Position numbers and translations under genes: made by a program. A stretch of DNA of 29,524 bases from a virus: positions 1-29,524 of the IMG/VR virus record IMGVR_UViG_3300031951_014640; one strand, given 5' to 3'. The notes beneath the pieces are model-generated. The model saw only the letters and a program-made list of their open reading frames with translations. It ran no database searches and was not told where the DNA came from. The stretch's first letter is position 1, and each line of letters begins with the position of its first letter. Positions 2,088 to 27,638 of the stretch are shown here, in pieces.

Positions 2088-2088
2088 T

Positions 2089-2100: not shown

Positions 2101-2109
2101 AATATTCAC

Positions 2110-6007: not shown

Positions 6008-6810
6008 TAATAAGACTCCAAATGATCGATGCCTAATTTTTTTCTAAAAGTATCTGTGAACTTTCCATCAATACGTAAACTATAACTTTGTTCCATAATA
6101 CGCTCACCGCCGTGCCAATCTACATCATTCCACCATGCTGCTCTAGTGTTTAAGTACACTTTATTTTTATTCTTTGGATCCCAAACATAAAAAGCTTTTT
6201 TAGTATTCGGTCTAATATGTATGAATTCGTTTCTGTGCGGTTTTACTACATCAATGCCATTCTTAGCATCTAAGTCTCTATGTTCAAATGGAATACCGTC
6301 TGCTTCACAATGAAAAAATATAACTCTACCTATATGTTCAAAAATGCCGTTTACTTTCATATTTTCTATCCATTGCACTACGTTAGGAAAATATTTTGCT
6401 TCTTCTGTAAGTTGTCGTTCACCTGGTCTATCATTCCAGTCACCTTCTTCATACAAAAAATAATAAATGTATGGATCATATGCTCCCATTGACATTTTTA
6501 AAAATCTAGTAAACTTATTTCGTTGCTTATAGTTCTTTATATCTTGATATAAATCCATTCCTGCAAGTTTTATAGGATCATTGTCTGGTAAAGATAAAAA
6601 TTCTGTCATGGCTTGATATATTGGTTTCCAATTTACTTTGTAACTCATGTCATCAAAACTAAAACCAGGTGCCATCCATGTTCCTTCTTTGGCAAACTCT
6701 CTTGCTTCTGCAAACCCTCTAATAATTTCTGGTTGCAATTTCATGAATGTGTCCATATCAATGTATGGCTCCATATCTATATATGGTTTATCATTGATTC
6801 CCTTAATCAT
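6007..6810 (-). CDS. 2-oxoglutarate/Fe(II) oxygenase-like protein
   Basis: The 267-residue protein has H177-R-D179 in PFEHRDLD, H233 in VDWHGGER and R246 in YSLRIDGK, the standard iron and 2-oxoglutarate ligand order. The N-terminal 110 residues contain many aromatic and acidic residues and no recognised domain. It starts inside the last codons of the tandem radical SAM pair (8-base overlap at 6803-6810), which suggests translational coupling and a shared pathway. A second in-frame Met lies near residue 13 within a duplicated YIDM segment; I keep the first ATG. Substrate unknown. Confidence 0.7.
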   Translation of the reverse strand: MIKGINDKPYIDMEPYIDMDTFMKLQPEIIRGFAEAREFAKEGTWMAPGFSFDDMSYKVNWKPIYQAMTEFLSLPDNDPIKLAGMDLYQDIKNYKQRNKFTRFLKMSMGAYDPYIYYFLYEEGDWNDRPGERQLTEEAKYFPNVVQWIENMKVNGIFEHIGRVIFFHCEADGIPFEHRDLDAKNGIDVVKPHRNEFIHIRPNTKKAFYVWDPKNKNKVYLNTRAAWWNDVDWHGGERIMEQSYSLRIDGKFTDTFRKKLGIDHLESY

Positions 6811-7882
6811 GTTTTGTAAATTCCTTTATTCTTCCATAATTTTCTATCCACTCTTTTGGTATTGTATCTAATAAGGGAAGTCCTTTATTAATTGCACCAT
6901 CTCTTAATAAAACTTGATGAACTAATGGGCTTGGTGGTTTACCTGGTAGTATATCTGCAATAGCTTCTGTTTGTATCTCACTTAAATCAAGAGTTGTTGC
7001 ATCAGGCCATTGAATTATTTTTACAGGAATATCATTAATTTTTATTACATAATGAGCCCTATTACCCTCTTCAGGACATTTTTCAAAACTATATCCATTC
7101 TTTATGCAAACATTTTCTGTTGCTTTCATTAAATCAGATAGATAAATTTGTTCGCCACCTGGTGTTCTTCCTATATCAGCTCCGCATCTTATTCTAAATT
7201 GCTCACAATAACTTGTTCCTAATTCAACTAATTCATTTACGCAATCTTCTAATTGCGTAAGATCAAGTAATGTATAAGAAATATTTTTAATATCCATATT
7301 ATACTTAATGCAGTATTCTATACCTTGCATTTGTTTTTTTCTAACAGCTTCCCCTTGGTAATCTTTGTGATTTAACCCAAATGTCCATTTAACATTTTTA
7401 TATTGTGAAAGAGATTTTGTATATTCTTCATTTGATAAATTTACACCATTAGTCAAAATCATTAGACCTCTAGGCTTTCCCGGTAAATTTTGTATACTTT
7501 CTATAATTTTAGGTAAGTCTTTTCTGACTGTTGGCTCTGCTCCAACTAGAGCGATTGGTAATCCATCATTGGGCCATGATTTAATTTTTTCTAATATTAA
7601 GTCAATCGATGGATCAACTGATTTGTTATCAGGCATTTGATAACAATGAGGACAAGTTAAATTACATCTGTTAGTTAACTCTATGAAATAACTTCCTAAT
7701 GCGTGTCTGTGATACGAATAGCTTAAATAAAACTCAGCATCAGGTTCTATTAAGTGTGTGGATTCTCCATGTTCTTTACATGTTTTTGTGATCCAAATGC
7801 TACCGTCTTTTTCAAATTTATAAGCAGGAATGTGCCTATAGCATTGGTGACATATAGATAATGTTTCGTTTATCAATCTCAT
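6803..7882 (-). CDS. Radical SAM protein, Zn-ribbon N-terminus, MJ0619/Tes-like (tandem copy 2)
   Basis: The core motif RCNLTCPHCYQMPDN gives C73, C77 and C80. An N-terminal module with C11XXC14 and C35XXH38 precedes it, like the zinc-ribbon-like segment at the N-terminus of the MJ0619/Tes branch of radical SAM enzymes. A VGAEPT strand replaces the usual GGEP. The adjacent gene at 7836-8924 is a clear paralogue with the same N-terminal cysteines, core and C-terminal layout. The two reading frames overlap by 47 bases. Members of the MJ0619 branch join or methylate carbon centres in lipids or pterins; whether these phage copies do so is unknown. Both cysteine sets are intact in both copies, so neither is obviously dead. 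Confidence 0.78.
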   Translation of the reverse strand: MRLINETLSICHQCYRHIPAYKFEKDGSIWITKTCKEHGESTHLIEPDAEFYLSYSYHRHALGSYFIELTNRCNLTCPHCYQMPDNKSVDPSIDLILEKIKSWPNDGLPIALVGAEPTVRKDLPKIIESIQNLPGKPRGLMILTNGVNLSNEEYTKSLSQYKNVKWTFGLNHKDYQGEAVRKKQMQGIEYCIKYNMDIKNISYTLLDLTQLEDCVNELVELGTSYCEQFRIRCGADIGRTPGGEQIYLSDLMKATENVCIKNGYSFEKCPEEGNRAHYVIKINDIPVKIIQWPDATTLDLSEIQTEAIADILPGKPPSPLVHQVLLRDGAINKGLPLLDTIPKEWIENYGRIKEFTKHD

Positions 7883-8924
7883 TGTTTCTGTATTTTTTAG
7901 GTATACTATCGTATAAAGGTAGTTTGTTATTTACAAAACGATCTCTTATTATTACTTGATGCAATAATGTTGACATTGGTTGATTTGGTACTAGTGATGC
8001 CCAACTCTCGCTTTGTGTTTCTTCAAAATCAATGGTTTTTACATCACACCATTTTATTAATCTATGTATAATGTTATTAATTTTTACTGCATAATGTGTT
8101 CTATTTGAATTTTCTAAACTATATTCAAAGTTCCAATTTTTAATCTCACATATTTTTTTAGTTTCTTTTACTAAATCAGAAAGATATAATTCTTTTCCGT
8201 GATCGTTTGGAGTTCTTCCTATTTCTACCCCTAGTTGAATTCTCGCATTGTCACAAACATCTTGTTGTTTCCATTTTTGTACTTCATCTAAAACGTCCGG
8301 TAATTCATCCATGCTGCCTAAAGTATATGTAAAATTTTTAATGACAAGTCCTAAATCTACACAATTTTTAATACCCTGTTCTTGTTTTTGTCTAATTGAA
8401 TCGCCATTGTAATTTGGATGATTCAACCCTATAGTCCATTTAAGATTGGGTATACCTTTAAACTTTTTAGCATAATCATGTTTTGCTAAATTTATGCCAT
8501 TAGTGACAACCATAATCATTCTTGGTTCACCCTCTAGTTCTTGTATTTTTTTAATAAGAATATCTAAATCTTTTCTGGTGGTAGGTTCAGCCCCAACTAA
8601 AGAAATAGGATATCCATTATTAGGTAAAGATTTAATTTCATCTATGATATAATCAATGGAAGGGTCTTTTGAATCATTATCTGGCATTTGATAACAATGA
8701 GGACAATCAAGATTGCATCTGTTTGTAATATCAATCCAATATGAACTAGGTTGTCGTTTTACGTAAGTTTGTTGCTTATAAAATTCTACGTCTGTTTCTA
8801 TCAAATCTTCTTGATGTCCATGTACTGGGCATTGTTTTACTAAATATACTCCCGTATCTTTAAACAATTTTGTAGCTGGTATATGCCTGTAACATATGCT
8901 ACACATTGAAAAAGTTTCATTCAT
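7836..8924 (-). CDS. Radical SAM protein, Zn-ribbon N-terminus, MJ0619/Tes-like (tandem copy 1)
   Basis: Paralogue of 6803-7882, with the core cluster at C70, C74 and C77 (RCNLDCPHCYQMPDN) and N-terminal C8XXC11 and C32XXH35. The shared stretches include CYRHIPA, NRCNL.CPHCYQMPDN, PSIDYI/LI, VGAEPT.RKDL, WTIGLNH, EIGRTP and HYA/VIKIN, so the pair arose by tandem duplication and has diverged substantially. Its start abuts the stop of the TauD-like gene upstream. Its last 15 or so codons overlap the start of copy 2. Two diverged copies next to each other could act as a heterodimer or on successive substrates, which is inference. Confidence 0.78.
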   Translation of the reverse strand: MNETFSMCSICYRHIPATKLFKDTGVYLVKQCPVHGHQEDLIETDVEFYKQQTYVKRQPSSYWIDITNRCNLDCPHCYQMPDNDSKDPSIDYIIDEIKSLPNNGYPISLVGAEPTTRKDLDILIKKIQELEGEPRMIMVVTNGINLAKHDYAKKFKGIPNLKWTIGLNHPNYNGDSIRQKQEQGIKNCVDLGLVIKNFTYTLGSMDELPDVLDEVQKWKQQDVCDNARIQLGVEIGRTPNDHGKELYLSDLVKETKKICEIKNWNFEYSLENSNRTHYAVKINNIIHRLIKWCDVKTIDFEETQSESWASLVPNQPMSTLLHQVIIRDRFVNNKLPLYDSIPKKYRNNEIDKRNIIYMSPML

Positions 8925-9778
8925 TATACGGGAGAATCCAAACTATAATCTTGATCTGGATACCAAACTGCAGCTCTGTGCATAACTCTTTTTTCTAACG
9001 ACACAAATTTATAACGCTTATGTATACCATGCCATTGATCAGAAATAGTAATATCACCATCATCCCATTCATGTGTGTAAACATATTTGTCTTGTATTGT
9101 ATATTCTCCTAACCATTTAATAAGTTCAGTTGCCTCATCTTGTGGCATACCAACAAATCCTCTTACTTGTAAGAACGGAAAATACATACCTTCAACACCT
9201 GTCTGTGGACTTACATAAACTAAGGGATGAAAAAATTCTTCATCATCTGCCCAACTTGAGGCTTTTGAACCATCGTGTCTTGTTCCACCTGTTATTATCA
9301 TTTTCAAATCTTTAATAACATTTCTAAAAGTTTTAGGTAAGTCTCTATAAGATAGTATGTTGTTATTGTAACTAGTAGAGGAACCTGCAGTGCCTCTTTC
9401 TCCGTGTAACCAAATAATTGGATCTCTTACTTTACGCCAAGTTAAATTAGCGTGCCAATCAAAATCTCCTGGATTAGCACCCACACCTGGTTTACCATGT
9501 TCATTTAATTCTGCGGTAACACGGCATATTAATCCGTCTGGGTCAAGTCTTGTGTGTTCAAAATTAGGATCATCCTTTTTAAATAATGGAACACAATCCT
9601 TAAACATTTTAAGAATTTCTAATTCTTTGTCCAAACTAAGTTTTTGTTTTTTAACGACAACCAAAGTATAACGACTAATTAACTTAGCTATCTTGTTTAT
9701 GTGTTCCTGAGTCGCATAATTTAAGTCAAAGTCATCAATAATGACAGTCCAACCATTTTCATGCATTCTATAATTCAT
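8924..9778 (-). CDS. TauD/TfdA-family dioxygenase-like protein with HXN in place of HXD
   Basis: At 284 residues this matches the length of TauD/TfdA family 2-oxoglutarate dioxygenases. The metal motif region reads DFDWHANLTW (H109, N111), aligned with the WHTDVTF-type motif, so the carboxylate ligand is Asn. The distal half has DQWHGIHKR (H250 or H253) and an MHRAAVWYP segment with R268, as in the family. The ATG at 9778 follows GGGAG at a spacing of about five bases. It is the first gene of the minus-strand operon behind a CATAAATA late-type promoter. Asn in this place would change or abolish normal Fe(II) chemistry, so catalytic activity is uncertain. Confidence 0.72.
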   Translation of the reverse strand: MNYRMHENGWTVIIDDFDLNYATQEHINKIAKLISRYTLVVVKKQKLSLDKELEILKMFKDCVPLFKKDDPNFEHTRLDPDGLICRVTAELNEHGKPGVGANPGDFDWHANLTWRKVRDPIIWLHGERGTAGSSTSYNNNILSYRDLPKTFRNVIKDLKMIITGGTRHDGSKASSWADDEEFFHPLVYVSPQTGVEGMYFPFLQVRGFVGMPQDEATELIKWLGEYTIQDKYVYTHEWDDGDITISDQWHGIHKRYKFVSLEKRVMHRAAVWYPDQDYSLDSPV

Positions 9779-9807
9779 TTGTACTCCCTATAATCTTTAA
9801 GTTGATT

Positions 9808-9824
9808 TATTTATGCTATAAATA
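9808..9824. promoter_or_regulatory. Back-to-back T4-type late promoters
   Basis: The plus strand has TATAAATA at 9817-9824, an exact T4 late octamer, and the minus strand has CATAAATA at 9815-9808, one base off. They lie in the 70-base gap between the divergent genes at 9778 and 9849. Both genes have Shine-Dalgarno sequences (GGGAG for the minus gene, AAAGGA for the plus gene) downstream of the predicted start sites, so the spacing works for both. Confidence 0.65.
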
Positions 9825-9848
9825 AGTGCGTCTATTTAAAGGATACAT

Positions 9849-10535
9849 GTGGCAAATTTTGAATACTATTACAACAATGTTCCGAATGTTGGTCTCTGCA
9901 GAAACAATTTAATTTACACAAGTTTGATGTCCGAAGATAAAAAGACATTTGTAAAATGGTATCATAATGATACAGATTATCATAAAGGTCAAAATCAAGT
10001 AGTTGATCCAGAAAAAATGCAGGAAAAATGGGAGCGTGAAGTAAAGTTTTTAAAGTTAATGCATGACGCTTATCCAATGCATGTTCCTTTTATACTTGAT
10101 ATAGATTATAACGATAAGAAAATTTACTTACAAGTAGATGGATCAGATTTTTGGGAACAAGCTGAATGTGATATGAAAAACTTTGATAAAGTTTTACCAA
10201 ACTGGCAAGATCAAATGCTTGAAATAATTAAAGCACATAAAGTTTTAGGATTACACAAATATAGTATGCATCCAAGTAGTTATTTTGTGGTTGATAATAA
10301 ATTAAAAAGCATTAATTATTTTTTTACGTATTTCCATACCGAACCATCAATAAGTATTAAGGATGTAGAAAGTCATATACATTTAAATAGACAAGCTGAA
10401 ATTAAGAAACACTTACGCAATTTTGGAATAGAATGGGATAGACCGCAGCCTTGGAGTATAATGGATCAACTTTGTTGGGAAAGTTTCAGAACTAATTATC
10501 CTACAGATTTTATTGAAAAAGCAAAAAGTGTTTAA
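9849..10535 (+). CDS. Kinase-like protein of unknown function (paralogue B)
   Basis: 228 residues starting with GTG at 9849, five bases after AAAGGA; an overlapping ATG two bases upstream is in another frame. It resembles the product of 4313-5023: FEYYYNN near the start, a KWEREVKFLK helix, NWQDQMLEIIK, KYSMHPSSYFVV and a NKLKSINYF strand occur in the same order. The Lys in FVKWYH and the Glu in EREVKF could correspond to the nucleotide-binding Lys/Glu pair of kinase-like folds, and HPSSYFVVDNK to the catalytic-loop region, but key Asp residues are missing or displaced. It begins a plus-strand operon of five genes. No function can be given with confidence. Confidence 0.6.
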   Translation: MANFEYYYNNVPNVGLCRNNLIYTSLMSEDKKTFVKWYHNDTDYHKGQNQVVDPEKMQEKWEREVKFLKLMHDAYPMHVPFILDIDYNDKKIYLQVDGSDFWEQAECDMKNFDKVLPNWQDQMLEIIKAHKVLGLHKYSMHPSSYFVVDNKLKSINYFFTYFHTEPSISIKDVESHIHLNRQAEIKKHLRNFGIEWDRPQPWSIMDQLCWESFRTNYPTDFIEKAKSV

Positions 10536-11085
10536 AGTTATACCTTGGTCTCCAAACTTAGATTTACAGTTGTTCTATAAGGAGGCAGCAAATAGAGGCT
10601 TTACAAATAACTCAAGTGAAAGAGTCTTAGTTGATTGTTTTAGAAATGAAAGAGAATGGGCTGTATGGATATTATATTATAACGATCAGCCTGTAGGAAG
10701 CGTTGCCGCTCATAGCTTTGATGATGTTATGGGAGAAAACAGTTATAGAATTGCAGCAAGAACATGTGTGTTTACGGATAGATTACCTAAACTTAGTTTA
10801 AGAACAAAAAATCAAATAATAACTCATCAACATGCAACTAGTCAATTTTTAATACCTACATGCATCAATTGGGCACCAAAAGGAAGTAAATTATACATCA
10901 CAAGTAACGAAGGAGAAGCAGGTACTCAAAAATTAGTACATAAAATTTTTGCTCCTGCTATGGAAGAGACAGGGCAAATGCGAAAAATTAAAACTGTTTA
11001 TTATAGGGGAGTAGAACAAACAGTTTGGGAAATATTTCCTAATTTATTTTTACAAGAATTAGAAAAATACGAAAAATGGACTTAG
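10513..11085 (+). CDS. GNAT-like acyltransferase-like protein
   Basis: 190 residues from a TTG at 10513, or 185 from a GTG at 10528; neither has a clear ribosome binding site and both overlap the end of the previous gene. The segment EWAVWILYYNDQPVGSVAAH, followed by a strand and a long helix, matches strands 2 to 4 of a GNAT acetyltransferase. The acetyl-CoA-binding Q/RXXGXG/A loop is not obvious; NEGEAGTQKLVHK near residue 140 is the closest. The gene overlaps the PP-loop gene downstream by ten bases, so the products are probably made together. Acetyl transfer is possible but unproven. Confidence 0.55.
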   Translation: MKKQKVFKVIPWSPNLDLQLFYKEAANRGFTNNSSERVLVDCFRNEREWAVWILYYNDQPVGSVAAHSFDDVMGENSYRIAARTCVFTDRLPKLSLRTKNQIITHQHATSQFLIPTCINWAPKGSKLYITSNEGEAGTQKLVHKIFAPAMEETGQMRKIKTVYYRGVEQTVWEIFPNLFLQELEKYEKWT

Positions 11086-11825
11086 ATTATAAAATTTATG
11101 ATGGCATCAAAATTGGACTTTATAAAAAAGGTCCTGTTGGTATTGGTATCAGCGGCGGTGCTGATAGCGCAATATTACTTTACATTTTAATGTCAACTGT
11201 TGTAGAGACAATTCACATATATAATATGATGGCTGAATTTCGTAGACCTGCTTTAGAAAACCATGTTAGAGATGTAATCGACAAATGCTCAGAATTGACT
11301 GGCAACACAAATTTTATTATACATCAAAACTTTGTAGAGCCTGATGAATCTGCTGAATATTATATTAATATGTTACAGAATGCTATTAATAAAAGAGAAG
11401 TCGATATAATTTACTTAGGATTGACTAAATTTCCACCCGCAGAAGAATTTTTACAATGGCCAGTTGAACAACAACCTGACTGGCATAACAAATTTAGATC
11501 GTATGAAGAAGAAAAACCTTTATTTGGATTTACAATACCAGTAGATTTAGCTGAAGATTTTAAAACAGTCCCTTTAACAATAGATGGAAATCCAATTCAA
11601 AATTTATCTATAGGTTCTGAGGCTTATATACCGTTATTCAACCATGACAAAAAAGATATTGCTAAACTTTATAATTTTTTTAATGTAACTGATAAGCTAT
11701 TACCTGTAACTAGAAGTTGCGAAAATGATAAGCACATCGGATCACACTGCAAAAATTGCTGGTGGTGCTATGAAAGAAAATGGGGCTTTGGATATTTTGA
11801 ATCACCATTTGAGGATATAAATTAA
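11076..11825 (+). CDS. QueC-like PP-loop ATPase (paralogue 2 of 3)
   Basis: The PP-loop SGGADS is at residues 26-31, and the C-terminal cysteines C215, C225, C228 and C231 (CX9CX2CX2C) sit in SCEN...HCKNCWWCYERKWGFGY. This matches QueC architecture (ATP-dependent conversion of a carboxylate to amide or nitrile, with a structural zinc). It is most like the copy at 24914-25600, sharing SGGADSA, TRSCE, CWWC and WGFGY, and more distant from the copy at 1332. The start ATG overlaps the upstream stop, and its own stop overlaps the next start (TAATG). The lack of other 7-deazaguanine genes nearby means the substrate may differ from preQ0 precursors. Confidence 0.8.
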   Translation: MDLDYKIYDGIKIGLYKKGPVGIGISGGADSAILLYILMSTVVETIHIYNMMAEFRRPALENHVRDVIDKCSELTGNTNFIIHQNFVEPDESAEYYINMLQNAINKREVDIIYLGLTKFPPAEEFLQWPVEQQPDWHNKFRSYEEEKPLFGFTIPVDLAEDFKTVPLTIDGNPIQNLSIGSEAYIPLFNHDKKDIAKLYNFFNVTDKLLPVTRSCENDKHIGSHCKNCWWCYERKWGFGYFESPFEDIN

Positions 11826-13267
11826 TGGATTATTTAATAAAAAAAGAAAAGAAAATTGTTTACTGTATACTTGATAATATTGAAGAATTTTATAGTACAA
11901 CATCTCAAGAAATTGCTAGAAACGTAAGCGATTTTTTTCTGTCGTTAGTAGTTTCTAAAAACTATGATATAATAATTGATAAGAACACAGATGCTTTATT
12001 AGAAAGAGCCGCACAAGATAATTTTTATACTCATGCAGTTGTAGTCATTACGGGTACCCATACTGGTTTATCCGAAAGATTATTACAAGCAATAGAAAAA
12101 AAATGTAATGAATTTTTTACTTTATCTGGTCATGTACTTGATAGGGGTGACGCTTACTACGAAATTCATAATCAATTTTTCATAGTAAATTTAGATGAAT
12201 ATAAAAGATTAGGAAAACCTAAAATGGGTGAAGTATCTTGGAATGAAGTTCATGAAAAAATAGAACCTATACGAAGTGAAGAATGTGTACGTGGTGATAA
12301 AGAGATACCAGTATGGATTAAAAATGGTTTTACGAACAAAACTTATAAACACAAACGTCATGGTTGGAATTTTTTTAAGGTTGGTTTAGAAAACAATGCG
12401 GTATTTTGTGACGTAGGTGACGAAATTAGAAATGAAAAAAACTACTTATATTATGAATATGATCATGTATTTTACAGACATGTTCCTAATTTATTTGACT
12501 ATCAGTTAATATGCAATAATATGGTAACTCCGTGGAATAGCGATATCATTTTAGAAAATGAAACAATAGAAGAAGATGCACTAGATCATTATGTTACTAC
12601 TGGTACAGGTCTTAATTGGATATACAATATTACACAATTAGGATATCATGAAAATACAAAAGTAACTTTTGTTGACAATAGTTATGCAGTGTTAAATTTT
12701 ATGAAATCTTTAATAGAAACGTGGGACGGCAAAGATTACGATATATTCTATATGGAACAATTAAAATTTGTACCTTACGGGTACAATTTAGATTTAGAAA
12801 AACATAAAGAAAATATAAAAATTTGGTTTACAGATTTTCAAAAAAGATTTGAAAATTTTACTGATGTTTGGAATACAATAAAGAAACTTAAATTCAATTT
12901 TGTGCTTTTAGATTTTTTTGCTAACAAAAACTTATCATTTATTGATCCAAAGGAAATTACATTTGTTAATGTAAGTGATGTTTTTAATCATGTTCCATAT
13001 GCACATATTGCACCAGTTAAATTTAGAGTAGCAAGAGAAAATTTTTTAATTACGACTATTAAAAACATTGGTCCTAAAATTTATTTTCACATATCTTTTA
13101 GACTAGGATTCGTTTATAAAACTAATTTAAGTACAGAAGAAAGAATAAGATTTGGTAGAATTAATGCTTTTGTTCTTTGGGATATAAATGAATTTAATAC
13201 ACCAACTTGGCAAATAAAAAATTGGAAAAGCTTGTGCCCTATAACGGGGGATGTGAGAATATTATGA
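11825..13267 (+). CDS. Large protein of unknown function, possible methyltransferase-like C-terminal half
   Basis: I do not recognise this 480-residue protein. The N-terminal part has alternating strands and helices and a VVVITGTHTG strand-turn. The middle contains several Tyr/Phe-rich strands. From about residue 255 a TTGTGLNWIYN glycine-containing turn, then KVTFVDNSYAVLNF some twenty residues later, resembles motifs I and II (acidic end of strand 2) of a class I methyltransferase, but the match is weak. It is coupled to the PP-loop gene upstream (1-base overlap) and the oxygenase gene downstream (ATGA overlap), so it belongs to the same functional block. No transmembrane segment or signal peptide is seen. 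Confidence 0.55.
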   Translation: MDYLIKKEKKIVYCILDNIEEFYSTTSQEIARNVSDFFLSLVVSKNYDIIIDKNTDALLERAAQDNFYTHAVVVITGTHTGLSERLLQAIEKKCNEFFTLSGHVLDRGDAYYEIHNQFFIVNLDEYKRLGKPKMGEVSWNEVHEKIEPIRSEECVRGDKEIPVWIKNGFTNKTYKHKRHGWNFFKVGLENNAVFCDVGDEIRNEKNYLYYEYDHVFYRHVPNLFDYQLICNNMVTPWNSDIILENETIEEDALDHYVTTGTGLNWIYNITQLGYHENTKVTFVDNSYAVLNFMKSLIETWDGKDYDIFYMEQLKFVPYGYNLDLEKHKENIKIWFTDFQKRFENFTDVWNTIKKLKFNFVLLDFFANKNLSFIDPKEITFVNVSDVFNHVPYAHIAPVKFRVARENFLITTIKNIGPKIYFHISFRLGFVYKTNLSTEERIRFGRINAFVLWDINEFNTPTWQIKNWKSLCPITGDVRIL

Positions 13268-13920
13268 CAAGAGAATATTTTTTTTCAGAAGGAAAGTATT
13301 TAAAGCTTGATATAGAGGTACCCTATAAAGAAATACTAAAAGAAGCTTTTGCATTAATCGATAAGTTCACACCACATCGTCAAGGAGAATATGCTCATGA
13401 TGGTTGGGAAGGATTGACGATACACGGGTTAGAATGGAATAAACATGAAAATTTTGATACATATGGCTATGCAAAAGGAAAAGACGCAAGCAACGATTAT
13501 AGATGGACAGAAATCGCAGACCTTTGTCCTGTAACTACCAATTGGTTACAAAATTATTTCCCATGTAAAAAATATGGTCGAGTAAGATTTATGTTACTTA
13601 GAGCCGGTGGCGAAATAGCAATGCATAATGATTCTCCGAGCGGTATAAAATTGATAGAGAACATCAATGTTGCGTTAAACAATCCAAAAGGATGTAAGTG
13701 GATTTGGGGAGACGGAGAAGAATTAATTATGGAAGAGGGCGGAGTCTACGCAATGAATTTAGCGTATGATCATAGTGTCGTTAACAAGAGTAATGAAGAT
13801 AGAATACATATTATAATTGCACGACATGATGGATTAGATGAATGGAAAACTTTAATGAATGAAGCGGCAGTTAAACAAGGTGTTACAGGACAATATAAAG
13901 TAATAGATGATTTACCTTAG
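13264..13920 (+). CDS. 2-oxoglutarate/Fe(II) oxygenase-like protein
   Basis: 218 residues from the ATG at 13264, which overlaps the upstream stop as ATGA and follows GTGAG seven bases earlier. A longer frame from 13207 would overlap by 61 bases and is unlikely. The metal set is H121-N-D123 (AMHNDSP), H170 (YDHSVVN) and R180 (EDRIHIIIARHD), in family order. The sequence is strand-rich between them, with a GGEIAM strand before the motif and a GGVYAMN strand before the second His. It ends the plus-strand block and overlaps the convergent radical SAM gene by four bases. Substrate unknown. Confidence 0.7.
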   Translation: MTREYFFSEGKYLKLDIEVPYKEILKEAFALIDKFTPHRQGEYAHDGWEGLTIHGLEWNKHENFDTYGYAKGKDASNDYRWTEIADLCPVTTNWLQNYFPCKKYGRVRFMLLRAGGEIAMHNDSPSGIKLIENINVALNNPKGCKWIWGDGEELIMEEGGVYAMNLAYDHSVVNKSNEDRIHIIIARHDGLDEWKTLMNEAAVKQGVTGQYKVIDDLP

Positions 13921-14954
13921 TGTAAGTTTGCACAATTTTTCACACAAATCCAAGGCTTTTGTTTAAAGTCAGTTGTAAGATTCCATACCTCATCATTAAC
14001 TATATCATCTAAAGAATAATTGTTTAAGTTCAATTTACTGAACGAATTAAAATTTGTTTTTGTATTCTCTACCAGTTTATTTCTTAAGTCATGTATAGCA
14101 GAGTTTACCTTTAATGGTTCTTCTAAAATATCTGAACCTACCCAGCAGCAAGGTACAACGTTCCCAACACAATCTATATAAATTTCATTTTTTAATTTAC
14201 ATTTAGGTTCAATTTTAGAAACTGTAACTATCTTATCCCAAATTGTTAAATCTTTTTGAATGTCCTCTAATTTTAACATACTTATTTTTTTATAAGGTTG
14301 TATCGTAGCGGGTTCTAAATTATATTCAAACTCTCCTTTTTTGTTTAATACAGGAAAGTTATTCATATCATAAAATCTTTGGGTCGATTTAAAATTTATT
14401 GATTTAAATCCTATTGTCAACATCTGTTCTTCAAAATCTTTTAATTCATTTTCATTATGTTTAAAAACTAGACAGTCAATTGTTGCAGTTCCACCGTTAT
14501 TGATAAATGATTTAGCATTTTCAATAATTTTATGCCAATCTGTCCCTCGTCTGTATAATACATGGCTATCAGCAAATCCATCGATGCCAAAAACTACTTC
14601 ATGATTGTCCTTCAAAACTTTTGCTAAATTAGACCACCACTGTATTGTTCTAGCACTGCCATTTGTATGAATACCAATTTTTGCGTTGCTATATTGTCGC
14701 ACATATTCCATAATTTCTAAACAGTCCTGAGCAATTATAGGATCTCCGTAATTACCGCATGCGTAGAAATGATCTAATCTTTGCAAAGTTTGAGGATTCA
14801 TCCATTGTTTAAATTTTTCTAAACTAATTTCATTTTTACCGACGAATGGTCTTGCCTCCCCTCCATTATAATTTCTAGCACACATAGGACAACTGGCTTG
14901 ACATTTATCAGTCAATTCAATATGAATACTTGAAAAATTATTAGGATAATTCAT
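13917..14954 (-). CDS. Radical SAM/SPASM protein
   Basis: The radical SAM cluster is C18, C22 and C25 (TDKCQASCPMC). A C-terminal SPASM-like region has CKLKNEIYIDCVGNVVPCCW and then PWICVKNC, enough cysteines for one or two auxiliary clusters. At 345 residues it fits peptide-modifying SPASM enzymes such as those acting on RiPP precursors or on proteins. A CGNYGDP segment takes the place of the GGEP strand. Its ATG overlaps the stop of the methyltransferase gene upstream. Together with the genes at 14951, 15529 and 16484 it forms one minus-strand operon. Confidence 0.8.
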   Translation of the reverse strand: MNYPNNFSSIHIELTDKCQASCPMCARNYNGGEARPFVGKNEISLEKFKQWMNPQTLQRLDHFYACGNYGDPIIAQDCLEIMEYVRQYSNAKIGIHTNGSARTIQWWSNLAKVLKDNHEVVFGIDGFADSHVLYRRGTDWHKIIENAKSFINNGGTATIDCLVFKHNENELKDFEEQMLTIGFKSINFKSTQRFYDMNNFPVLNKKGEFEYNLEPATIQPYKKISMLKLEDIQKDLTIWDKIVTVSKIEPKCKLKNEIYIDCVGNVVPCCWVGSDILEEPLKVNSAIHDLRNKLVENTKTNFNSFSKLNLNNYSLDDIVNDEVWNLTTDFKQKPWICVKNCANLH

Positions 14955-15544
14955 TTATGTTTTCCAATAATCATATATCTGTCATATAATGGTAAACTTA
15001 ATACACTAGAGTGTAAAATTTTTAATTTACTTTGCTCCATAAATTCTTCAATACTATCAGCAGTTCTTATATGCTCATGTATATTGTAATTATTACTTTG
15101 TAATACAATCAAACTGTTATAGTGCAAACAAGTTAACCATTGTTCATATTGGTCCTGTGTTATATGTTCGCAACTAGTGTTAATTGCAACATCAGCATCA
15201 CTGCGTAGATTACACATATCGGCTGTAACTGCATGAAATCTTCCTGCTGTGTGTTCAATTTTATTCATTGTGTTTGCAATTTCTTCACATTTAGGATCTA
15301 TATCTATGCTACGAATTGACTTTACAGGATATGCTGCGTGAAAAAGCATACTAGCCAATACACCGTTCCAACCACCAAATATATCTATAGTGACTGGCTT
15401 ACCTACAAACACACCTAATTCTTTTATTAGCCATTCTTTGCTTTTAATTTGACCCTTCCAAAAACTTTCTAATGTGCGTTTAGGATCTTCGCTATTACGA
15501 ATAGCATCCATCCAAAACATTATATGTTCTAAGTTAATTTGCAT
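14951..15544 (-). CDS. Class I SAM-dependent methyltransferase
   Basis: Motif I reads TIDIFGGWNGVLAS (D54 to G61), a divergent glycine loop, followed by IRSIDIDP (acidic residues D81/D83) and FHAVTADMC (post-II). This order identifies a Rossmann-fold methyltransferase of 197 residues. INTSCEHI takes the position of motif IV. The gene sits between two radical SAM genes with small overlaps on both sides (4 and 16 bases). No target-recognition domain is visible, so small-molecule or peptide methylation is more likely than DNA methylation, as an inference. Confidence 0.75.
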   Translation of the reverse strand: MQINLEHIMFWMDAIRNSEDPKRTLESFWKGQIKSKEWLIKELGVFVGKPVTIDIFGGWNGVLASMLFHAAYPVKSIRSIDIDPKCEEIANTMNKIEHTAGRFHAVTADMCNLRSDADVAINTSCEHITQDQYEQWLTCLHYNSLIVLQSNNYNIHEHIRTADSIEEFMEQSKLKILHSSVLSLPLYDRYMIIGKHK

Positions 15545-16512
15545 TTTGGTATTTTACTGTCTGCACTACTTACACATCGTTGGGTTATACAAGGCATTGC
15601 GTTGCCAAATAAACTGAACCCTTTATCAAGAGTTCCTAATCTAAAATCGCTACAACTGTAGCCTCGCTTTACTTCATCGCCTCTTATTATAACACTTTGA
15701 TAGCCGCTATTACAAGTCCAATTGGTAAATTGGTTAAAGCCGAAAGCATTAAATCTTTCGGCTTGATCAAAATTATATGCAATATTATTAGAATCATACA
15801 ATCGTATTTGATATATGTTTTGTTCATTCACTTGTTGCGGAAAACCATTTTGCATGATATCAATCATTTCACTAGTGTAACCATCTACTATTGCACTAGC
15901 ACTTTCATTACTTTGTGGTTTTAGTGTTACGTTTATTCCTTTGTCTGCAAATCGTTGACATCTTTCATATAATTGATAAAATTCATTTGGAACCATAACT
16001 TGATTGATAGTTACATAAACATTTTCTGCCATCAAATGTAGGCACTTCTCTGCAAATTCATCCTCATTGCTAAACTCATGATGAAAACTTGCTGTTATTG
16101 ATTTTCTTTGTAATAATTCACCTGCTGTTGCCCATTTACTCCACCATTTTTTACTTGGGCTTAAGTTTGTAGTCATATGAATACTTTGATAGGGAGTTAT
16201 ACCATCTTCTAGACACTTTATTAATTCAGTTAAGTGTTTGTAAGCAGTAGGTTCTCCGCCACTAAATGACCAATGAAAATTAGTGAAGTTGTTTTGTCTT
16301 GCTTGAGTTTTAATTTGATTAATTGTGTTTTTGTAAACTTCTAATGATTGATAGTCGGGAGTGCTTGAATTTGCATATGGCCAACAATAACTACATTTAT
16401 AATTGCAAAATCGACCAAGTATCCAACTCACAGAAAAAAGCGGATACTCTAGCATTGTTTGCTGCCCGAACTTAACTATTTTTTCAAACGGGACGTTCAT
16501 AAAATCTGTCAA
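15529..16512 (-). CDS. Radical SAM protein with C-terminal cysteine region
   Basis: C36, C40 and C43 (RFCNYKCSYCWPY) form the radical SAM cluster, and FSGGEPTAYKHL is the GGEP strand. C-terminal cysteines in TCNSGYQ, YSCSDF, MPCITQRC and PKCKLT suggest an auxiliary Fe-S cluster. The first strand (SVSWILGRFCNYKC) resembles the truncated gene at the left edge of the window. It overlaps the glycosyltransferase-like gene upstream by 29 bases and the methyltransferase downstream by 16. At 327 residues it is of ordinary length. Substrate unknown. Confidence 0.8.
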   Translation of the reverse strand: MTDFMNVPFEKIVKFGQQTMLEYPLFSVSWILGRFCNYKCSYCWPYANSSTPDYQSLEVYKNTINQIKTQARQNNFTNFHWSFSGGEPTAYKHLTELIKCLEDGITPYQSIHMTTNLSPSKKWWSKWATAGELLQRKSITASFHHEFSNEDEFAEKCLHLMAENVYVTINQVMVPNEFYQLYERCQRFADKGINVTLKPQSNESASAIVDGYTSEMIDIMQNGFPQQVNEQNIYQIRLYDSNNIAYNFDQAERFNAFGFNQFTNWTCNSGYQSVIIRGDEVKRGYSCSDFRLGTLDKGFSLFGNAMPCITQRCVSSADSKIPKCKLT

Positions 16513-17395
16513 TATCTTCTTGTCTCTTTCCTGCTAAAAATTCTTCTGCACTACGTATAGGTGCTTTATAATTTAATTTAAATTGTGTGCTTTCTTCTGG
16601 GCTTAATATATCAGTGATTAATTTGTAGTTTAGTAGTTTACCAAGCTTATTACATTCTTCTACTATATTGCTGTTTACTAATCCAAAATACTGATTAAAT
16701 ATTTCATCAAGCTGTTCAAAATCATTTAATACTTTAATGTCATGTCCACGCAATAATAAAAATGCTCCTAATCTTGCACCATAAATCGACCAAATACCAT
16801 TCTTAGTATCACTACCAACATGCATCCAATTATAAAGTCTATAAAGATTTCTCCAATCTATCTTATCAAAATCTTTATTACCGCTATCTAATAACTTCAT
16901 ACCATCTCTAAATCCTGCACGAAATGCTTGTAGTGGACTATGATTTATAACTGTGTGACTTGCAATTGCATTTAATTCAAGATATTTATCTAGCTCAAAA
17001 TCAACGCTATCTCCAACTTCATGTGTACGCATTTCTTTCAGTAGATGTACAGGCCAACATTTTACACCACCGTTGCCGTAACAATTATGGTTAACGATAT
17101 TTAGACTGCTCCAACTGAATACATAATCAGTCCAATCAAAGTGTGGCTTAGTCCAAATATTAAATCTCCATAAACTAGATAATACATGATTGTCACCATC
17201 GATAATGATTACCCTATCCGTTTTGGCTAATTCTGCACAAGCTTTATGTGCAGCATCACTGCCTTTCACTCCATGTACTCTTTTTGCTTTGGGTCGTATA
17301 GATAGTAAATGCTGATAATTTTCTTCAGCGTTTGGTTCATCATAACTTAGGAATACTACATCATAGACATTGGGATTCAACGCAAAAGTATTCAT
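16484..17395 (-). CDS. GT-A-like glycosyltransferase
   Basis: The N-terminus has YDVVFLSYDEPNAEENY followed by a strand-helix pattern, GVKGSDAAHKACAELA, and IIIDGDN with D66-G-D68, the DXD metal and nucleotide-sugar motif of GT-A folds. The 303-residue length fits a single-domain glycosyltransferase. It is the first gene of the minus-strand block. A TGTAAATA octamer at 17408-17401 ends five bases before the ATG, giving no room for a Shine-Dalgarno sequence. Similar proteins are familiar from marine T4-like phages. The acceptor is unknown. Confidence 0.65.
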   Translation of the reverse strand: MNTFALNPNVYDVVFLSYDEPNAEENYQHLLSIRPKAKRVHGVKGSDAAHKACAELAKTDRVIIIDGDNHVLSSLWRFNIWTKPHFDWTDYVFSWSSLNIVNHNCYGNGGVKCWPVHLLKEMRTHEVGDSVDFELDKYLELNAIASHTVINHSPLQAFRAGFRDGMKLLDSGNKDFDKIDWRNLYRLYNWMHVGSDTKNGIWSIYGARLGAFLLLRGHDIKVLNDFEQLDEIFNQYFGLVNSNIVEECNKLGKLLNYKLITDILSPEESTQFKLNYKAPIRSAEEFLAGKRQEDIDRFYERPV

Positions 17396-17461: not shown

Positions 17462-17503
17462 ATGTCATTTATTATAATTTCATTCACACATAAGGAGACA
17501 CAA

Positions 17504-18037
17504 ATGAAAACAGTTGGTGATACCATTGAAAAATTTGCCGTAACAGGCGTCAACCCAGGTAGTGATCAGTTTTTTGACATTACTGACACAAGTTTTGAAG
17601 GTAAATGGAAAGTTATCGTTTACTACCCAAAAGATTTCACATTTGTTTGTCCAACAGAAATCGTAGCATACGATAAGTTGGCAAATGATTTCAAAGACCG
17701 TGATGCAGTATTATTGACAGGTTCAACAGACAATGAATTCTGTAAATTAGCATGGCAAAAAGCACACCCTGATCTAGCAAAGATTACGCATGTACAATTT
17801 GCAGATACACAACGCGGTGAACTAAGCTTAATCAATCAGCTTGGCATTTTCTTTGCGCCAGCTGGTGCAGCACTCCGCGCAACATTTATCGTTGATCCAG
17901 ACAATGTAATTCAACATGTTACAGTTAACAATCTAAATGTTGGTCGTAGCCCAGAAGAAACATTGCGTGTACTAGATGCACTACAAACAGGTGAACTATG
18001 TGCATGTAATCGTTCAGTTGGTGGCGAGACACTATAA
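17504..18037 (+). CDS. ahpC: Alkyl hydroperoxide reductase C (peroxiredoxin)
   Basis: A typical 2-Cys peroxiredoxin of the AhpC/Prx1 type, reducing hydrogen peroxide, organic peroxides or peroxynitrite in the cytoplasm. The active site PKDFTFVCPTE holds Pro42, Thr46 and the peroxidatic Cys49, and the conserved Arg is in ALRATFIVD. The C-terminus GELCACNR has Cys166 and Cys168, the CXC arrangement of the mycobacterial AhpC that is reduced by AhpD rather than AhpF. The partner ahpD is two genes downstream. The ATG at 17504 is chosen over an upstream one at 17462 because AAGGAGA precedes it at proper spacing and the 177-residue product starts like other family members. Own sigma70 promoter upstream. 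Confidence 0.93.
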   Translation: MKTVGDTIEKFAVTGVNPGSDQFFDITDTSFEGKWKVIVYYPKDFTFVCPTEIVAYDKLANDFKDRDAVLLTGSTDNEFCKLAWQKAHPDLAKITHVQFADTQRGELSLINQLGIFFAPAGAALRATFIVDPDNVIQHVTVNNLNVGRSPEETLRVLDALQTGELCACNRSVGGETL

Positions 18038-18432
18038 TGATAGAGTGCCTTATCTTAGGAGATAGTATAGCTAAGGGTGTAAGCCAAGTACGTACTGAGT
18101 GTGTGGCTTATGCTCAAAGCGGTATTAATAGCAAAGATTGGAACGATGCATATGTTAAAAAAGTTAAGCCAGCCAAAACTACAATTATTAGTTTAGGCAG
18201 TAATGATTTTAAAAACTTAAATACCGAAATAGAATTAGTAGCATTAAGAAGTTTTGTTAATTCTGATCGTGTATTTTGGATTGTTCCTGCTATCAAACCA
18301 GAAAAACAAGAGATAGTAAAAAAGATTGCCAGGCATTACGGTGATACTTTTGTTATTATTCCTGAACTATCTCCTGATAAGGTTCATCCTACATACAAAG
18401 GATATAGACAACTAGGAGCATTAACAAAATGA
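18037..18432 (+). CDS. Small SGNH hydrolase (GDSL-type esterase-like)
   Basis: 131 residues with all four SGNH blocks: Ser10 in LGDSIAKG, Gly29 in AQSGIN, Asn56 in SLGSND, and Asp114/His117 in DKVHPTYKGY. These form the oxyanion hole and Ser-His-Asp triad of GDSL-type esterases and acetylhydrolases. It is shorter than usual (180 or more), so it is a minimal version, with no signal peptide. It overlaps ahpC by one base (TAATG) and ahpD by four. Its insertion inside an ahpC-ahpD operon is unusual; a role in peroxide defence is not established. It could instead deacylate a phage or host metabolite. Confidence 0.75.
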   Translation: MIECLILGDSIAKGVSQVRTECVAYAQSGINSKDWNDAYVKKVKPAKTTIISLGSNDFKNLNTEIELVALRSFVNSDRVFWIVPAIKPEKQEIVKKIARHYGDTFVIIPELSPDKVHPTYKGYRQLGALTK

Positions 18433-18947
18433 CAGTATGGGTAGACACATTGAAAGAAGTAAGTATCCCTGATTACGCTAAGGATACAAAACTAAATTTA
18501 GATGCAGTAATTAAGCGTAGTACATTACCTGCCGAAGAAGCAGAAGCAGTAGCAGTTGCAGCAGCATTTGCAACAGGCAACAGTAAATTTTGGACATGGC
18601 TTCATAGCCAATTAGATAACCGTACTGAGGCTGATGCAGCATTAACAGCAGCAAGCATTATGGCACAAAACAACGTATGGTATCCATTTGTTGAAATGGC
18701 TGATGACGAAAACCTTAAAGGATTGCCAGCGCAATTGCGTATGAATGCAATTACAAGTCACGGTGGTACAACCAAAGCAAGATTTGAAGCATATAGTTTA
18801 GCAGCAAGTATCGTAGGCAAGTGTCATTTTTGTGTTAAGGCACATTATGAAACACTTAAAAAAGAAGGATACACAGTAGAACAGTTACGAGATATTGGAC
18901 GAATAGCGGCAGTTATAACATCAGTATCAAGAGTATTAAGTAACTAA
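18429..18947 (+). CDS. ahpD: AhpD-type alkylhydroperoxidase
   Basis: 172 residues with the AhpD active site GKCHFCVKAHYE: Cys132, Cys135 and His139, plus Glu120, matching the Glu/Cys/Cys/His proton-relay set of mycobacterial AhpD. AhpD has weak peroxidase activity of its own and regenerates AhpC using lipoyl-protein electrons. The CXC C-terminus of the AhpC encoded upstream fits this partnership. The all-helical Ala-rich middle is as expected. The start overlaps the SGNH gene by four bases. Host lipoylated dihydrolipoamide acyltransferase would be needed, since none is seen here. Confidence 0.88.
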   Translation: MTVWVDTLKEVSIPDYAKDTKLNLDAVIKRSTLPAEEAEAVAVAAAFATGNSKFWTWLHSQLDNRTEADAALTAASIMAQNNVWYPFVEMADDENLKGLPAQLRMNAITSHGGTTKARFEAYSLAASIVGKCHFCVKAHYETLKKEGYTVEQLRDIGRIAAVITSVSRVLSN

Positions 18948-18955
18948 ATACTTGT

Positions 18956-19456
18956 ATGAAAAACATAGGCGACATAGTAGGTTCTTATGCTATCAATTGC
19001 ATAAAACCAAACGAATCAAACTTTAACGGTAGAAAACTTGTTACCGAAAAAACCTTTGAGGGTTCTTGGAAAATATTTGTATTTTATCCAAATAACTTTA
19101 CTTATGTACATCCTGCTGAATTAGTAGGATTCCATAGTATTTCACAACAACTGGCTGTAAATGGTGTGATATTAATGATAGGGTCTACGGATAAATTGTT
19201 TTCTGAAAATGCTTGGAAAGCCATCAATGAAAAAGTTGGTACTCCTAGCTTATATATTTTTACGGATAATCCACATCAACAAAATAGTTTGGCAGATAAG
19301 TTAGGATTAGAATTATCAACAGAAAGGTTAACAAGGGTATTGTGTATTGTTGATGATAAAGATACAATACAGTTTATATCTGAGGATGACCTAGACATAG
19401 TGAGTTCAGTCTCAAGGATGTTATCGGGACTGAAACAAATAAGTGGGCAAATTTAA
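18956..19456 (+). CDS. AhpC-like peroxiredoxin paralogue lacking the peroxidatic cysteine
   Basis: 166 residues that align with AhpC throughout (IGDIVGSYAI, FEGSWKIFVFYP, RVLCIVDD). The active site reads PNNFTYVHPAE: Pro45 and Thr49 are kept but the peroxidatic Cys is His52 (codon CAT). The C-terminal CXC pair is also absent, and the protein ends at a SGLKQISGQI tail. The remaining cysteines (Cys15 and the one in VLCIVD) are not in redox positions. The reading frame is intact, so it appears to be kept for a non-peroxidase role such as mixing into the AhpC decamer, chaperone action or redox sensing. No Shine-Dalgarno is visible; ACTAAATA ends five bases before the ATG. Confidence 0.85.
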   Translation: MKNIGDIVGSYAINCIKPNESNFNGRKLVTEKTFEGSWKIFVFYPNNFTYVHPAELVGFHSISQQLAVNGVILMIGSTDKLFSENAWKAINEKVGTPSLYIFTDNPHQQNSLADKLGLELSTERLTRVLCIVDDKDTIQFISEDDLDIVSSVSRMLSGLKQISGQI

Positions 19457-22382: not shown

Positions 22383-22385
22383 GAA

Positions 22386-22704
22386 CGTTCTGCTTAGTCA
22401 GCAGATAGTGTGACCCGCACGATGAGAAGTAGTATGACAACTACGGGTGGTACACTTTAAACCGAAAGTGCGCTGGCAATGCGAAAACGAGACCTGTCGT
22501 GGAGAGGGTGGAGGCCGTGTGTGATGGTATTGAGACTACTCCGTGCTTGATGCGGTATAATTACCTCCGAGGTCTGTCAGAGCAGTTTTATTATGGGGGT
22601 TGCCCCGGTCGGCGGTCTGTAAAACCGTTCCCAAAAGATCGGAAGTCGGGTATGTGGAGCGTTACCATCAGCCCCCACCAATTACTTTTAAAGGAGATCC
22701 TGTT
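22386..22704 (+). ncRNA. Structured noncoding RNA, about 320 nt (RNA-3)
   Basis: Between tRNA-Asp and tRNA-Lys lies a GC-rich stretch with dense pairing: TCTGC/GCAGA at the 5' end; a three-part stem AGTGT/ACACT (22407/22452), ACCCG/CGGGT and GTAGT/ACTAC; AGACCT with AGGTCT (22490/22570); GGAGG/CCTCC; CCG/CGG; and an 8-bp helix GGGGGTTG (22595-22602) with CAGCCCCC (22669-22676) enclosing CCGGTC/GATCGG and CGGT/ACCG. A plus-strand frame across it (22499-22732) is rich in Cys, Arg and Trp and looks like a shadow. At the 3' end AAAGGAGA precedes a 12-codon frame from 22705 that runs into tRNA-Lys; its reality is doubtful. No promoter is seen, so it may be processed from a transcript read through tRNA-Asp. 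Confidence 0.65.
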
Positions 22705-22733: not shown

Positions 22734-22809
22734 GCGGGCATAGCTCAGCAGGTAGAGCAGTAGACTTTTAATCTATTGGTCGTGGGTTCGAATCCCTCTG
22801 CCCGTACCA
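22734..22809 (+). tRNA. tRNA-Lys(UUU)
   Basis: Acceptor GCGGGCA/TGCCCGT with a G1-U72 wobble. D arm GCTC/GAGC, anticodon loop CTTTTAA (TTT), T loop TTCGAAT, discriminator A, encoded CCA. Its 3' end GTACCA is also part of a long stem with downstream sequence. Confidence 0.95.
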
Positions 22810-22961: not shown

Positions 22962-22997
22962 TATACTATCTTAAATACATGTGCAGTACATGTATTT
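22962..22997 (+). promoter_or_regulatory. pqqA promoter region with 10-bp inverted repeat
   Basis: TATACT at 22962-22967 is a good -10 box, but no clear -35 is present, so an activator may be needed. AAATACATGT (22973-22982) and ACATGTATTT (22988-22997) form a perfect 10-bp inverted repeat with a 5-base spacer at the expected transcript start. It could act as an operator or as a 5' hairpin protecting the short message. TTAAATAC inside it also resembles a late-type octamer. Confidence 0.5.
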
Positions 22998-23015
22998 TAA
23001 TTTAAGGAGAGTAAC

Positions 23016-23087
23016 ATGTGGACAACACCTAGTGCAACTGATATGCGTTTTGGTTTTGAAATCACCATGTACATTGCAAATCGCTAA
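23016..23087 (+). CDS. pqqA: PqqA, coenzyme PQQ precursor peptide
   Basis: A 23-residue ORF beginning MWTTPSATDMRFGFEITM and ending YIANR. It matches the typical proteobacterial PqqA pattern MWTKP..TD.R.GFEVTMY....R, including the Glu15 and Tyr19 that PqqE crosslinks and that supply all carbon and nitrogen of pyrroloquinoline quinone. AAGGAGAG lies before the ATG at good spacing. A promoter-like TATACT lies upstream and a terminator at 23117 closes the unit, so the gene stands alone. No pqqB, pqqC, pqqD or recognisable pqqE is in the window, so the phage would depend on host enzymes. This suggests support for PQQ-dependent methanol or glucose dehydrogenase in the host. The short length leaves some chance of coincidence, but the full-length pattern match makes that small. 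Confidence 0.9.
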   Translation: MWTTPSATDMRFGFEITMYIANR

Positions 23088-23116
23088 TTAGTGATTTACA
23101 ATTAACATGTTTGACG

Positions 23117-23139
23117 AAAGGGTAGCAATGCTACCTTTT
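23117..23139 (+). terminator. Terminator after pqqA
   Basis: AAAGGGTAGC (23117-23126) pairs with GCTACCTTTT (23130-23139) around a 3-base AAT loop, with one G-U pair. The distal T run belongs to the stem, so termination strength is uncertain. Confidence 0.65.
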
Positions 23140-23158
23140 CTTACCTTTGGAGATTTGT

Positions 23159-23315: not shown

Positions 23316-23390
23316 TGGGGATTCGTCAAGCGGTAAGACAGCGGATTTTGATTCCGCCATGCGGGGGTTCGAATCCCTCATCCCCTACCA
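23316..23390 (+). tRNA. tRNA-Gln(UUG)
   Basis: TGGGGAT/ATCCCCT acceptor with a U1-U72 mismatch. Anticodon stem GCGGA/TCCGC, loop TTTTGAT (TTG), T arm GGGGG/CCCTC with TTCGAAT, discriminator A, encoded CCA. The weak first pair is also a feature of bacterial tRNA-Gln, which is usually U1-A72. Confidence 0.93.
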
Positions 23391-25718: not shown

Positions 25719-27638
25719 ATGTCTAAGATTATAGGTATTGACCTAGGTACGACCAATTCATGTGTAGCCATTGTAGATGGCAAAAACCCAAAAGTAATAG
25801 AGAATAGCGAAGGTGCAAGAACAACACCAAGTATTATCGCCTACATCAACGATGGCGAAATAATGGTAGGTGCTCCTGCTAAACGTCAGGCTATTACAAA
25901 CCCAAAAAATACAATTTACGCATCAAAGCGGCTAATTGGTCGTAAATTTACAGAAGAAGCAGTACAAAAAGATATTGATCTTATCCCTTACAAAATTGTC
26001 AAAGCAGACAATGGCGACGCATGGGTAGAGGTAAATGATAAGAAACTTGCTCCGCCACAAATCAGTGCAGAAGTCTTACGTAAGATGAAGAAAACTGCAG
26101 AAGATTTTTTAGGCGAAGAAGTAACACAAGCAGTTATTACGGTTCCTGCGTACTTTAACGATAGTCAGCGTCAAGCAACAAAAGATGCTGGAAAAATTGC
26201 TGGGCTTGAAGTTTTACGTATTATAAATGAACCAACTGCAGCAGCACTAGCCTACGGAGTAGATAAGAGTGAAAAGAAGGATCGCAAAATCGCTGTTTAT
26301 GATCTTGGTGGTGGCACTTTTGATATATCAATTATTGACATCGCTAATGTGGATGATGATAAACAATTCGAAGTACTTTCCACTAATGGGGATACATTTT
26401 TAGGTGGTGAAGATTTTGATCAGCGCATTATGGACTTTCTAGTTGAAGAATTCAAAAAGGAAAGCGGTGTTGATCTAACAAAAGATGTATTAGCATTACA
26501 AAGACTTAAGGATGCAGCAGAACGTGCTAAGATTGAATTATCCAGTTCAACACAGACTGATGTAAGTTTACCTTACATTACTGCCGACGCATCAGGTCCA
26601 AAGCATTTGAATGTCAAAATTACACGTGCAAAATTTGAGGGCTTAGTTGAAGATTTAATTCAGCGTAGTATCAAGCCTTGCGAAATAGCAGTACGTGATG
26701 CGGGTATACCACTTAATGAAATTGATGAAGTTATCCTTGTTGGTGGTATGACACGTATGCCACGTGTACAAGAAGCAGTAGAAAAGTTTTTTGGCAAAGC
26801 ACCTCGTAAAGATGTAAACCCTGATGAAGCAGTTGCAGTTGGCGCTGCAATTCAAGGTCAAGTTCTTGGTGGTGATCGTAAAGATGTTCTATTGTTAGAT
26901 GTTACACCATTAAGCCTTGGTATTGAAACATTAGGTGGTGTTATGAGTAAACTTATCAAAAAGAATACTACTATCCCTACAAAGGCAAGTCAAACTTTTA
27001 GTACAGCAGATGATAATCAGCCTGCAGTTACAATTAAAGTTTTCCAAGGTGAACGTGAAGTTGTGAGTGGTAATAAAGCACTTGGTGAATTCAATTTAGA
27101 AGGCATTGATCCTGCACCACGCGGCATGCCGCAAATTGAAGTAACATTTGACATTGATGCGAATGGTATCTTATCTGTTAAAGCAGTTGATAAGAAAACC
27201 AACAAAGAAAAAGAAATTACTATCAAAGCTAATTCTGGATTAAGTGACGATGAAATTGACCGCATGGTTAAAGACGCAGAGCTTAATGCAGAAGAAGATA
27301 AGAAAGTAGTTGAACTTGTACAAGCAAGAAATGCATTAGATGGTAACATTAGTAATTTAGAAAATCAAATTACAAATCTTGAAGGTTATATACCTGAAGA
27401 TGAAAAAACTAAATTGCTTGATACATTGACTAAGTACAAAGAAACTGCTAAAGGTGATAGCAAAGAAGATATGGATAAAGCAGCAGAGGAGTTGGGCAAT
27501 CTATATCGTGAAACTATCAAGTATGAAGCAGAAAAGCGTAATAAAGAAATGCCAAATGGTGATCCAAACGCTGAAGTAACGCCAGGTGATCCAACAGTAG
27601 TAGATGCAGAAGTAAAAGAAACAAAAGAAACTAATTAA
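25719..27638 (+). CDS. dnaK: Hsp70 chaperone DnaK, complete
   Basis: 639 residues, full length. The nucleotide-binding domain carries [13 protein letters not shown] (phosphate 1), [23 protein letters not shown] (phosphate 2) and [10 protein letters not shown] (adenosine). The linker [15 protein letters not shown] leads to a substrate-binding domain and a helical lid, and a short tail (PTVVDAEV...) keeps a bacterial-type C-terminus. The sequence reads like a betaproteobacterial DnaK. No dnaJ or grpE is present in the window, so host co-chaperones are needed. AAAGGAG precedes the ATG. A phage-type late promoter and 5' hairpin in place of a sigma32 promoter suggest that an acquired host gene has come under phage control, presumably to aid virion protein folding. 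Confidence 0.95.

Follow-up and report, generated by a model that had tools for sequence, protein, structure and literature searches.

A stand-alone pqqA gene recurring in phages probably supplies the peptide consumed in PQQ synthesis

A complete pqqA gene, encoding the peptide precursor of PQQ, was found in a viral DNA fragment of 29,524 bp (the window, that is, the whole stretch analysed), where it stands alone. The best explanation, in which we have good confidence, is that phage pqqA is an auxiliary metabolic gene providing PQQ synthesis with nothing but its consumable component, and such a substrate-supply role is consistent with all the observations made here.

The 23-residue product of the ORF, MWTTPSATDMRFGFEITMYIANR, matched two PqqA profiles along their whole length, namely Pfam PF08042 (41.3 bits, cut-off 21.1, profile positions 1-19 of 19) and NCBIfam TIGR02107 (40.7 bits, cut-off 20, profile positions 1-21 of 21), and contains E15 and Y19 in the arrangement E-x-x-x-Y. 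Glu15 and Tyr19 of PqqA are the residues turned into PQQ. It was the single PqqA match in the window, and the back-translated, codon-level PqqA motif occurred once there and in none of 100 shuffled versions. As far as sequence can decide, the identification of the entire ORF as true PqqA, put forward in the original prediction, was thus confirmed. The local signals described there fared well too (Table 1). Both the ribosome binding site and the terminator-like hairpin proved real, and the putative 177-nt pqqA transcript folded better than all 200 shuffles (z = -3.7). As for the proposed -10 box with an inverted repeat, the 9-bp repeat held up; TATACT itself was at chance level (3 promoter-like sites seen, 2.0 expected in the scan), though a TATAAT-like box lies just 5' of the hairpin in most of seven sister-phage leaders.

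Table 1. Coordinates of the features discussed (positions refer to the window unless a locus is named).
Feature	Position	Strand	Basis or remark
Window record	29,524 bp		IMG/VR virus record IMGVR_UViG_3300031951_014640
pqqA, 23-codon ORF, 23-residue PQQ precursor peptide	23016..23087	+	PF08042, TIGR02107
Shine-Dalgarno AAGGAG, 6 nt 5' of ATG	23004..23009	+	sequence
5' hairpin AATACATGT-GCAGT-ACATGTATT, 9-bp stem	22974..22996	+	fold -9.0 kcal/mol
-10-like box TATACT	22962..22967	+	promoter scan
Intrinsic terminator hairpin GAAAGGGTAGC-AAT-GCTACCTTTTC, 11 pairs	23116..23140	+	fold z = -3.9
tRNA-Lys(TTT), 5' of pqqA	22734..22809	+	ARAGORN, Rfam
tRNA-Gln(TTG), 3' of pqqA	23316..23390	+	ARAGORN, Rfam
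Sequence resembling tRNA-Tyr(GTA)	~22594-22681	+	not called by ARAGORN
Conserved non-coding element, tRNA-Asp to tRNA-Lys interval	22383-22600, core ~22405-22500	+	
49-residue ORF 3' of pqqA, marker of a large-phage family	23159..23308	+	~84-94% identical in 20 IMG/VR contigs
Full-length DnaK	25719-27638	+	DnaK tree
Radical SAM gene cluster	80-17395		
AhpC-like, AhpD-like and second AhpC-like peroxide-defence genes	17462-19456		
Methanol-oxidation genes of G016	L267:13989-18783, L268:1889-2789		
Opposite-strand hypothetical ORFs over pqqA	L002:7961-8056 (Melnitz), L007:2067-2195 (podovirus)		deposited annotation

The description of the surroundings as a phage-like tRNA cluster was likewise borne out on this virus record: ARAGORN called 14 tRNA genes in the array, and pqqA sits amid them, between tRNA-Lys and tRNA-Gln. 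A general link between pqqA and tRNA genes was considered and rejected, since among 144 phage loci just 5 (3.5%) are less than 300 bp from a tRNA, compared with 2.4% of bases; proximity to tRNA is therefore limited to a few large phages. Two further observations concern the array itself. One segment resembles a tRNA-Tyr, and a tRNA-Tyr was called in the matching interval of a sister contig (G202). In addition, the core of a conserved non-coding element, present in at least 120 IMG/VR contigs, aligned as four helices across 99 distinct phage copies, each pair being formed in 87-99 of the 99 sequences and represented by as many as five standard pair types. No match was found in Rfam 15, and the element has the appearance of a genuine structured RNA, as yet unnamed, that belongs to the tRNA arrays of large phages.

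Around pqqA, the window shares synteny with two sister contigs, G202 (106 kb) and G212 (118 kb), at 84-87% DNA identity, and many proteins encoded elsewhere on these contigs are 64-99% identical to those of the window. Perfect hairpins with another stem sequence occupy the same position in the sister phages G210, G204, G197 and G018, so that the shape is constant and the stem differs by subgroup (ACATACT/AGTATGT versus that of the window). The hairpin is probably located at or near the 5' end of the mRNA, where a terminal stem-loop might stabilise a short, highly translated message; alternatively, it could be an operator site. Leader structure as a general property of phage pqqA was discarded: folds over 124 loci (mean z -1.1) were barely better than shuffles, and the hairpin therefore seems particular to the window's phage group. 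Within this group the gene appears to be dispensable, an accessory, because 11 of the 20 tested records with the 49-residue gene, some of them fragments, lack pqqA, and 9, the window counted, have it. As with other auxiliary metabolic genes, a host-type gene is thus found on a virus record, here together with an HNH endonuclease and a tRNA array, and is missing from some relatives. Apart from pqqA, the window contains a dense cluster, partly retained in sister phages, in which six or more radical SAM proteins are encoded alongside a PP-loop protein and a dioxygenase-like protein; an HMPTM zinc ribbon is present in two of the radical SAM proteins. It also has peroxide-defence genes, the first AhpC-like one being 99% identical to that of G212.

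The claim that no other pqq gene is near was upheld. Profile searches of the window gave no match to PqqB, PqqC or PqqD (the PqqD profile was applied to the window only), and the best match of its radical SAM proteins to the PqqE profile reached 23.4 bits against a cut-off of 381, corresponding to the generic core only. Accordingly, pqqA stands alone, and no pqqABCDE operon is found within the window fragment. None of the 52 phage records tested, many of them incomplete (44 IMG/VR records no shorter than 15 kb, seven phage-collection records and the window), had PqqE, PqqB or PqqC over the cut-off, and all three were positive in the control, a mislabelled Acinetobacter contig. Searches with tblastn for PqqB, PqqC, PqqD and PqqE in the two sister contigs and G018 found none. 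That six or more radical SAM genes lie 6-23 kb 5' of pqqA, one of them with a SPASM domain and three matching the PqqE profile weakly, might suggest that a phage enzyme instead of host PqqE converts the peptide into a phage-specific modified product (a new RiPP). We regard this as highly improbable, given the generic nature of those matches and the absence of PqqD from the window; moreover, 48 of the 52 phage pqqA records, including cultured phages of 35-44 kb, showed no PqqE-profile match of any kind.

When phage genomes were searched, as the original prediction had proposed, pqqA proved to be widespread. A DNA pattern scan detected it in at least 120 IMG/VR contigs, and tblastn of the peptide against 50,697 phage records retrieved nine cultured Methylophilales phage genomes from several lineages (P19250A, Venkman, MEP301, MEP401, MEP402 and four Melnitz strains) and one unhosted podovirus. 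The gene is annotated as pqqA in none of the nine cultured genomes: five have no annotated feature at its position, and in the two Melnitz records inspected, as in the podovirus, a 'hypothetical protein' on the opposite strand overlaps it. In the published descriptions searched, which concern cultured phages other than P19250A, phage pqqA goes unmentioned. The cultured methylophages carry members of the window's peptide family, stand-alone and preceded by a Shine-Dalgarno sequence, and the Melnitz gene also lies near a tRNA gene (26 bp). They differ from the window in their E9 and V16 residues and VMNK, VLNK or IMTR tail, where the window has D9, I16 and IANR, and in having pqqA unannotated or under an opposite-strand ORF. 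A further match, 'Acinetobacter phage MD-2021a' (CAKLQF020000010.1, L004), was rejected as a phage; with its complete pqqABCDE operon and housekeeping genes, it is a bacterial chromosome contig filed as phage.

The 144 phage loci, comprising 126 distinct DNA cores and 54 distinct peptides, bear marks of selection. An SD-like motif precedes all of them, the stop codon falls exactly 22 residues past Trp2 in 143, and pN/pS was 0.17 overall and 0.49 at the residues that the search pattern left free. Because the first pattern required both E15 and Y19, the scan was repeated with these positions left open, and both residues were retained in 120 of 120 contigs. Judged by pN/pS, fixed length and invariant E15/Y19, the sequences indicate that selection maintains phage pqqA. 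These results bear on the possibility that the gene is a chance host-derived passenger without selection in the phage, or that chromosomal contigs have been called viral. Methylophilaceae do hold many scattered, easily acquired pqqA copies, and one 'phage' match was indeed chromosomal; nevertheless, the phage copies are intact and constrained, pqqA recurs in cultured phages and the window has long syntenic sister contigs, making this account very unlikely.

The strongest pointer to function is G016 (IMGVR_UViG_3300025120_009955), a 72-kb phage record in which ribonucleotide reductase genes of phage type, a weak match to a tail fibre and a weak curli-like match were seen. Like the window, it has pqqA, tRNAs and DnaK (68% identical to the window's). 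Beyond these, profile searches detected a methanol-type PQQ dehydrogenase (608 bits, cut-off 480), a formate dehydrogenase alpha subunit (885 bits, cut-off 666) and a quinoprotein dehydrogenase-associated SoxYZ-like carrier (197.5 bits, cut-off 140). Its pqqA, with its own terminator, lies ~110 bp 5' of the carrier gene, and the methanol and formate dehydrogenase genes are found ~3-8 kb from it. This pairing of pqqA with methanol dehydrogenase argues for supply and against a decoy or inhibitor, that is, a phage peptide that occupies host PqqD/PqqE and lowers PQQ. Competition between a lone substrate-like peptide and host PqqA is conceivable, but loss of a reactive residue would then be expected, contrary to the complete retention of E15 and Y19 in the copies free to vary, and we attach very little probability to this role.

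Where the original prediction considered a methylotroph host, the residues of the peptide point elsewhere. PqqA of named Methylophilaceae had E9/V16 with VMNK or VCN[KR] in 56 of 56 cases, and D9/I16 in none of the 56; that of Methylophagaceae was D9/V16/ICNR (22 of 22). Outside Methylophilaceae, Burkholderiales PqqA was mostly D9/I16/IA[NT]R, with D9/I16 in 23 of 27, and the D9/I16/IANR combination is shared by the window and each of the eight records in its sister set. Among 300 genomes from the order containing both Burkholderiales and Methylophilaceae, the closest cellular PqqA was 91% identical to the window's, compared with 78% for the best recognised Methylophilaceae copies. A Burkholderiales-type host is therefore tentatively favoured for the window phage, a signature of 22 residues being weak evidence, and a methylotroph host is not supported. 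The DnaK tree grouped the phage proteins with no host group: those of the window, G202, G212, G016 and G043 formed a single clade, separate from the bacterial DnaKs sampled (99/98 support). Methanol dehydrogenase, proposed as the beneficiary of the extra cofactor, is not supported as the target for the window either, since its gene was absent from the window, from all but one of the 51 other phage records and from the 106-kb and 118-kb sister contigs.

The expectation that such a gene would be unusual was too strong, and phage pqqA is of a kind already known: a Lake Baikal study found PqqA and methanol dehydrogenase in the phage population VP_266 (PMC7678222), and a reservoir study of 2026 listed pqqA, pqqE and pqqD among viral genes (PMC13188868). 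As in the window, PqqA of the VP_266 methylophage is on a phage contig and was proposed to raise host PQQ; in contrast, VP_266 has methanol dehydrogenase and was assigned to Methylophilaceae, whereas the window has no methanol dehydrogenase and a Burkholderiales-type PqqA. The stand-alone extra pqqA genes of methylotroph chromosomes are likewise short, located away from pqqBCDE and a source of additional precursor, differing from the window copy in being chromosomal and not on a phage (PMC9851590). What is new here is the breadth of the occurrence, the stand-alone state, the evidence of selection and the hidden presence in cultured phages; in addition, judging from the peptide sequences, phage pqqA probably extends beyond Methylophilaceae.

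Under the substrate-supply role, an infecting phage would make many PqqA copies from a short, self-contained transcript running from the 5' hairpin to the terminator. The phage peptide would be bound by host PqqD and PqqE and its Glu15 joined to Tyr19 by a cross-link, leaving host PqqB/PqqC and a protease to complete PQQ. The additional PQQ could keep host PQQ-dependent dehydrogenases loaded, which may sustain the energy supply during phage multiplication. As the peptide is used one for one and the enzymes are catalytic and supplied by the host, PqqA would be the least costly component for a phage to encode. Peptide-gene copy number looks like a host strategy too, since pqqA was found in 149 of 150 Methylophilaceae genomes, ~140 of them with 2-12 copies, and PqqE in five of the six tested. 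In one producer strain pqqA is present in five copies, of which three lie away from the operons and two are highly expressed, and PqqA added to cell extract gave PQQ at 70-80% (PMC9851590). PqqA alone may not limit PQQ everywhere, given that overexpression of pqqAB in Acetobacter increased PQQ by 29% only, compared with eightfold for pqqABCDE (PMC7936290).

More broadly, there is perhaps an even chance that phages of PQQ-makers, both methylotrophs and other Burkholderiales, have repeatedly kept only the consumable, gene-encoded part of the pathway and left the enzymes to the host, forming a 'precursor-only' class largely missed because ORFs of 23 codons are passed over by gene callers. Very short genes are overlooked when viral metabolic genes are surveyed, and the nine cultured methylophage genomes with an unnoticed pqqA make the idea testable in existing phage-host systems. 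If true, phages would act on the stoichiometric peptide of PQQ supply and not on the enzymes, suggesting that PQQ-dependent oxidation in abundant aquatic bacteria may be limited by the amount of precursor peptide.
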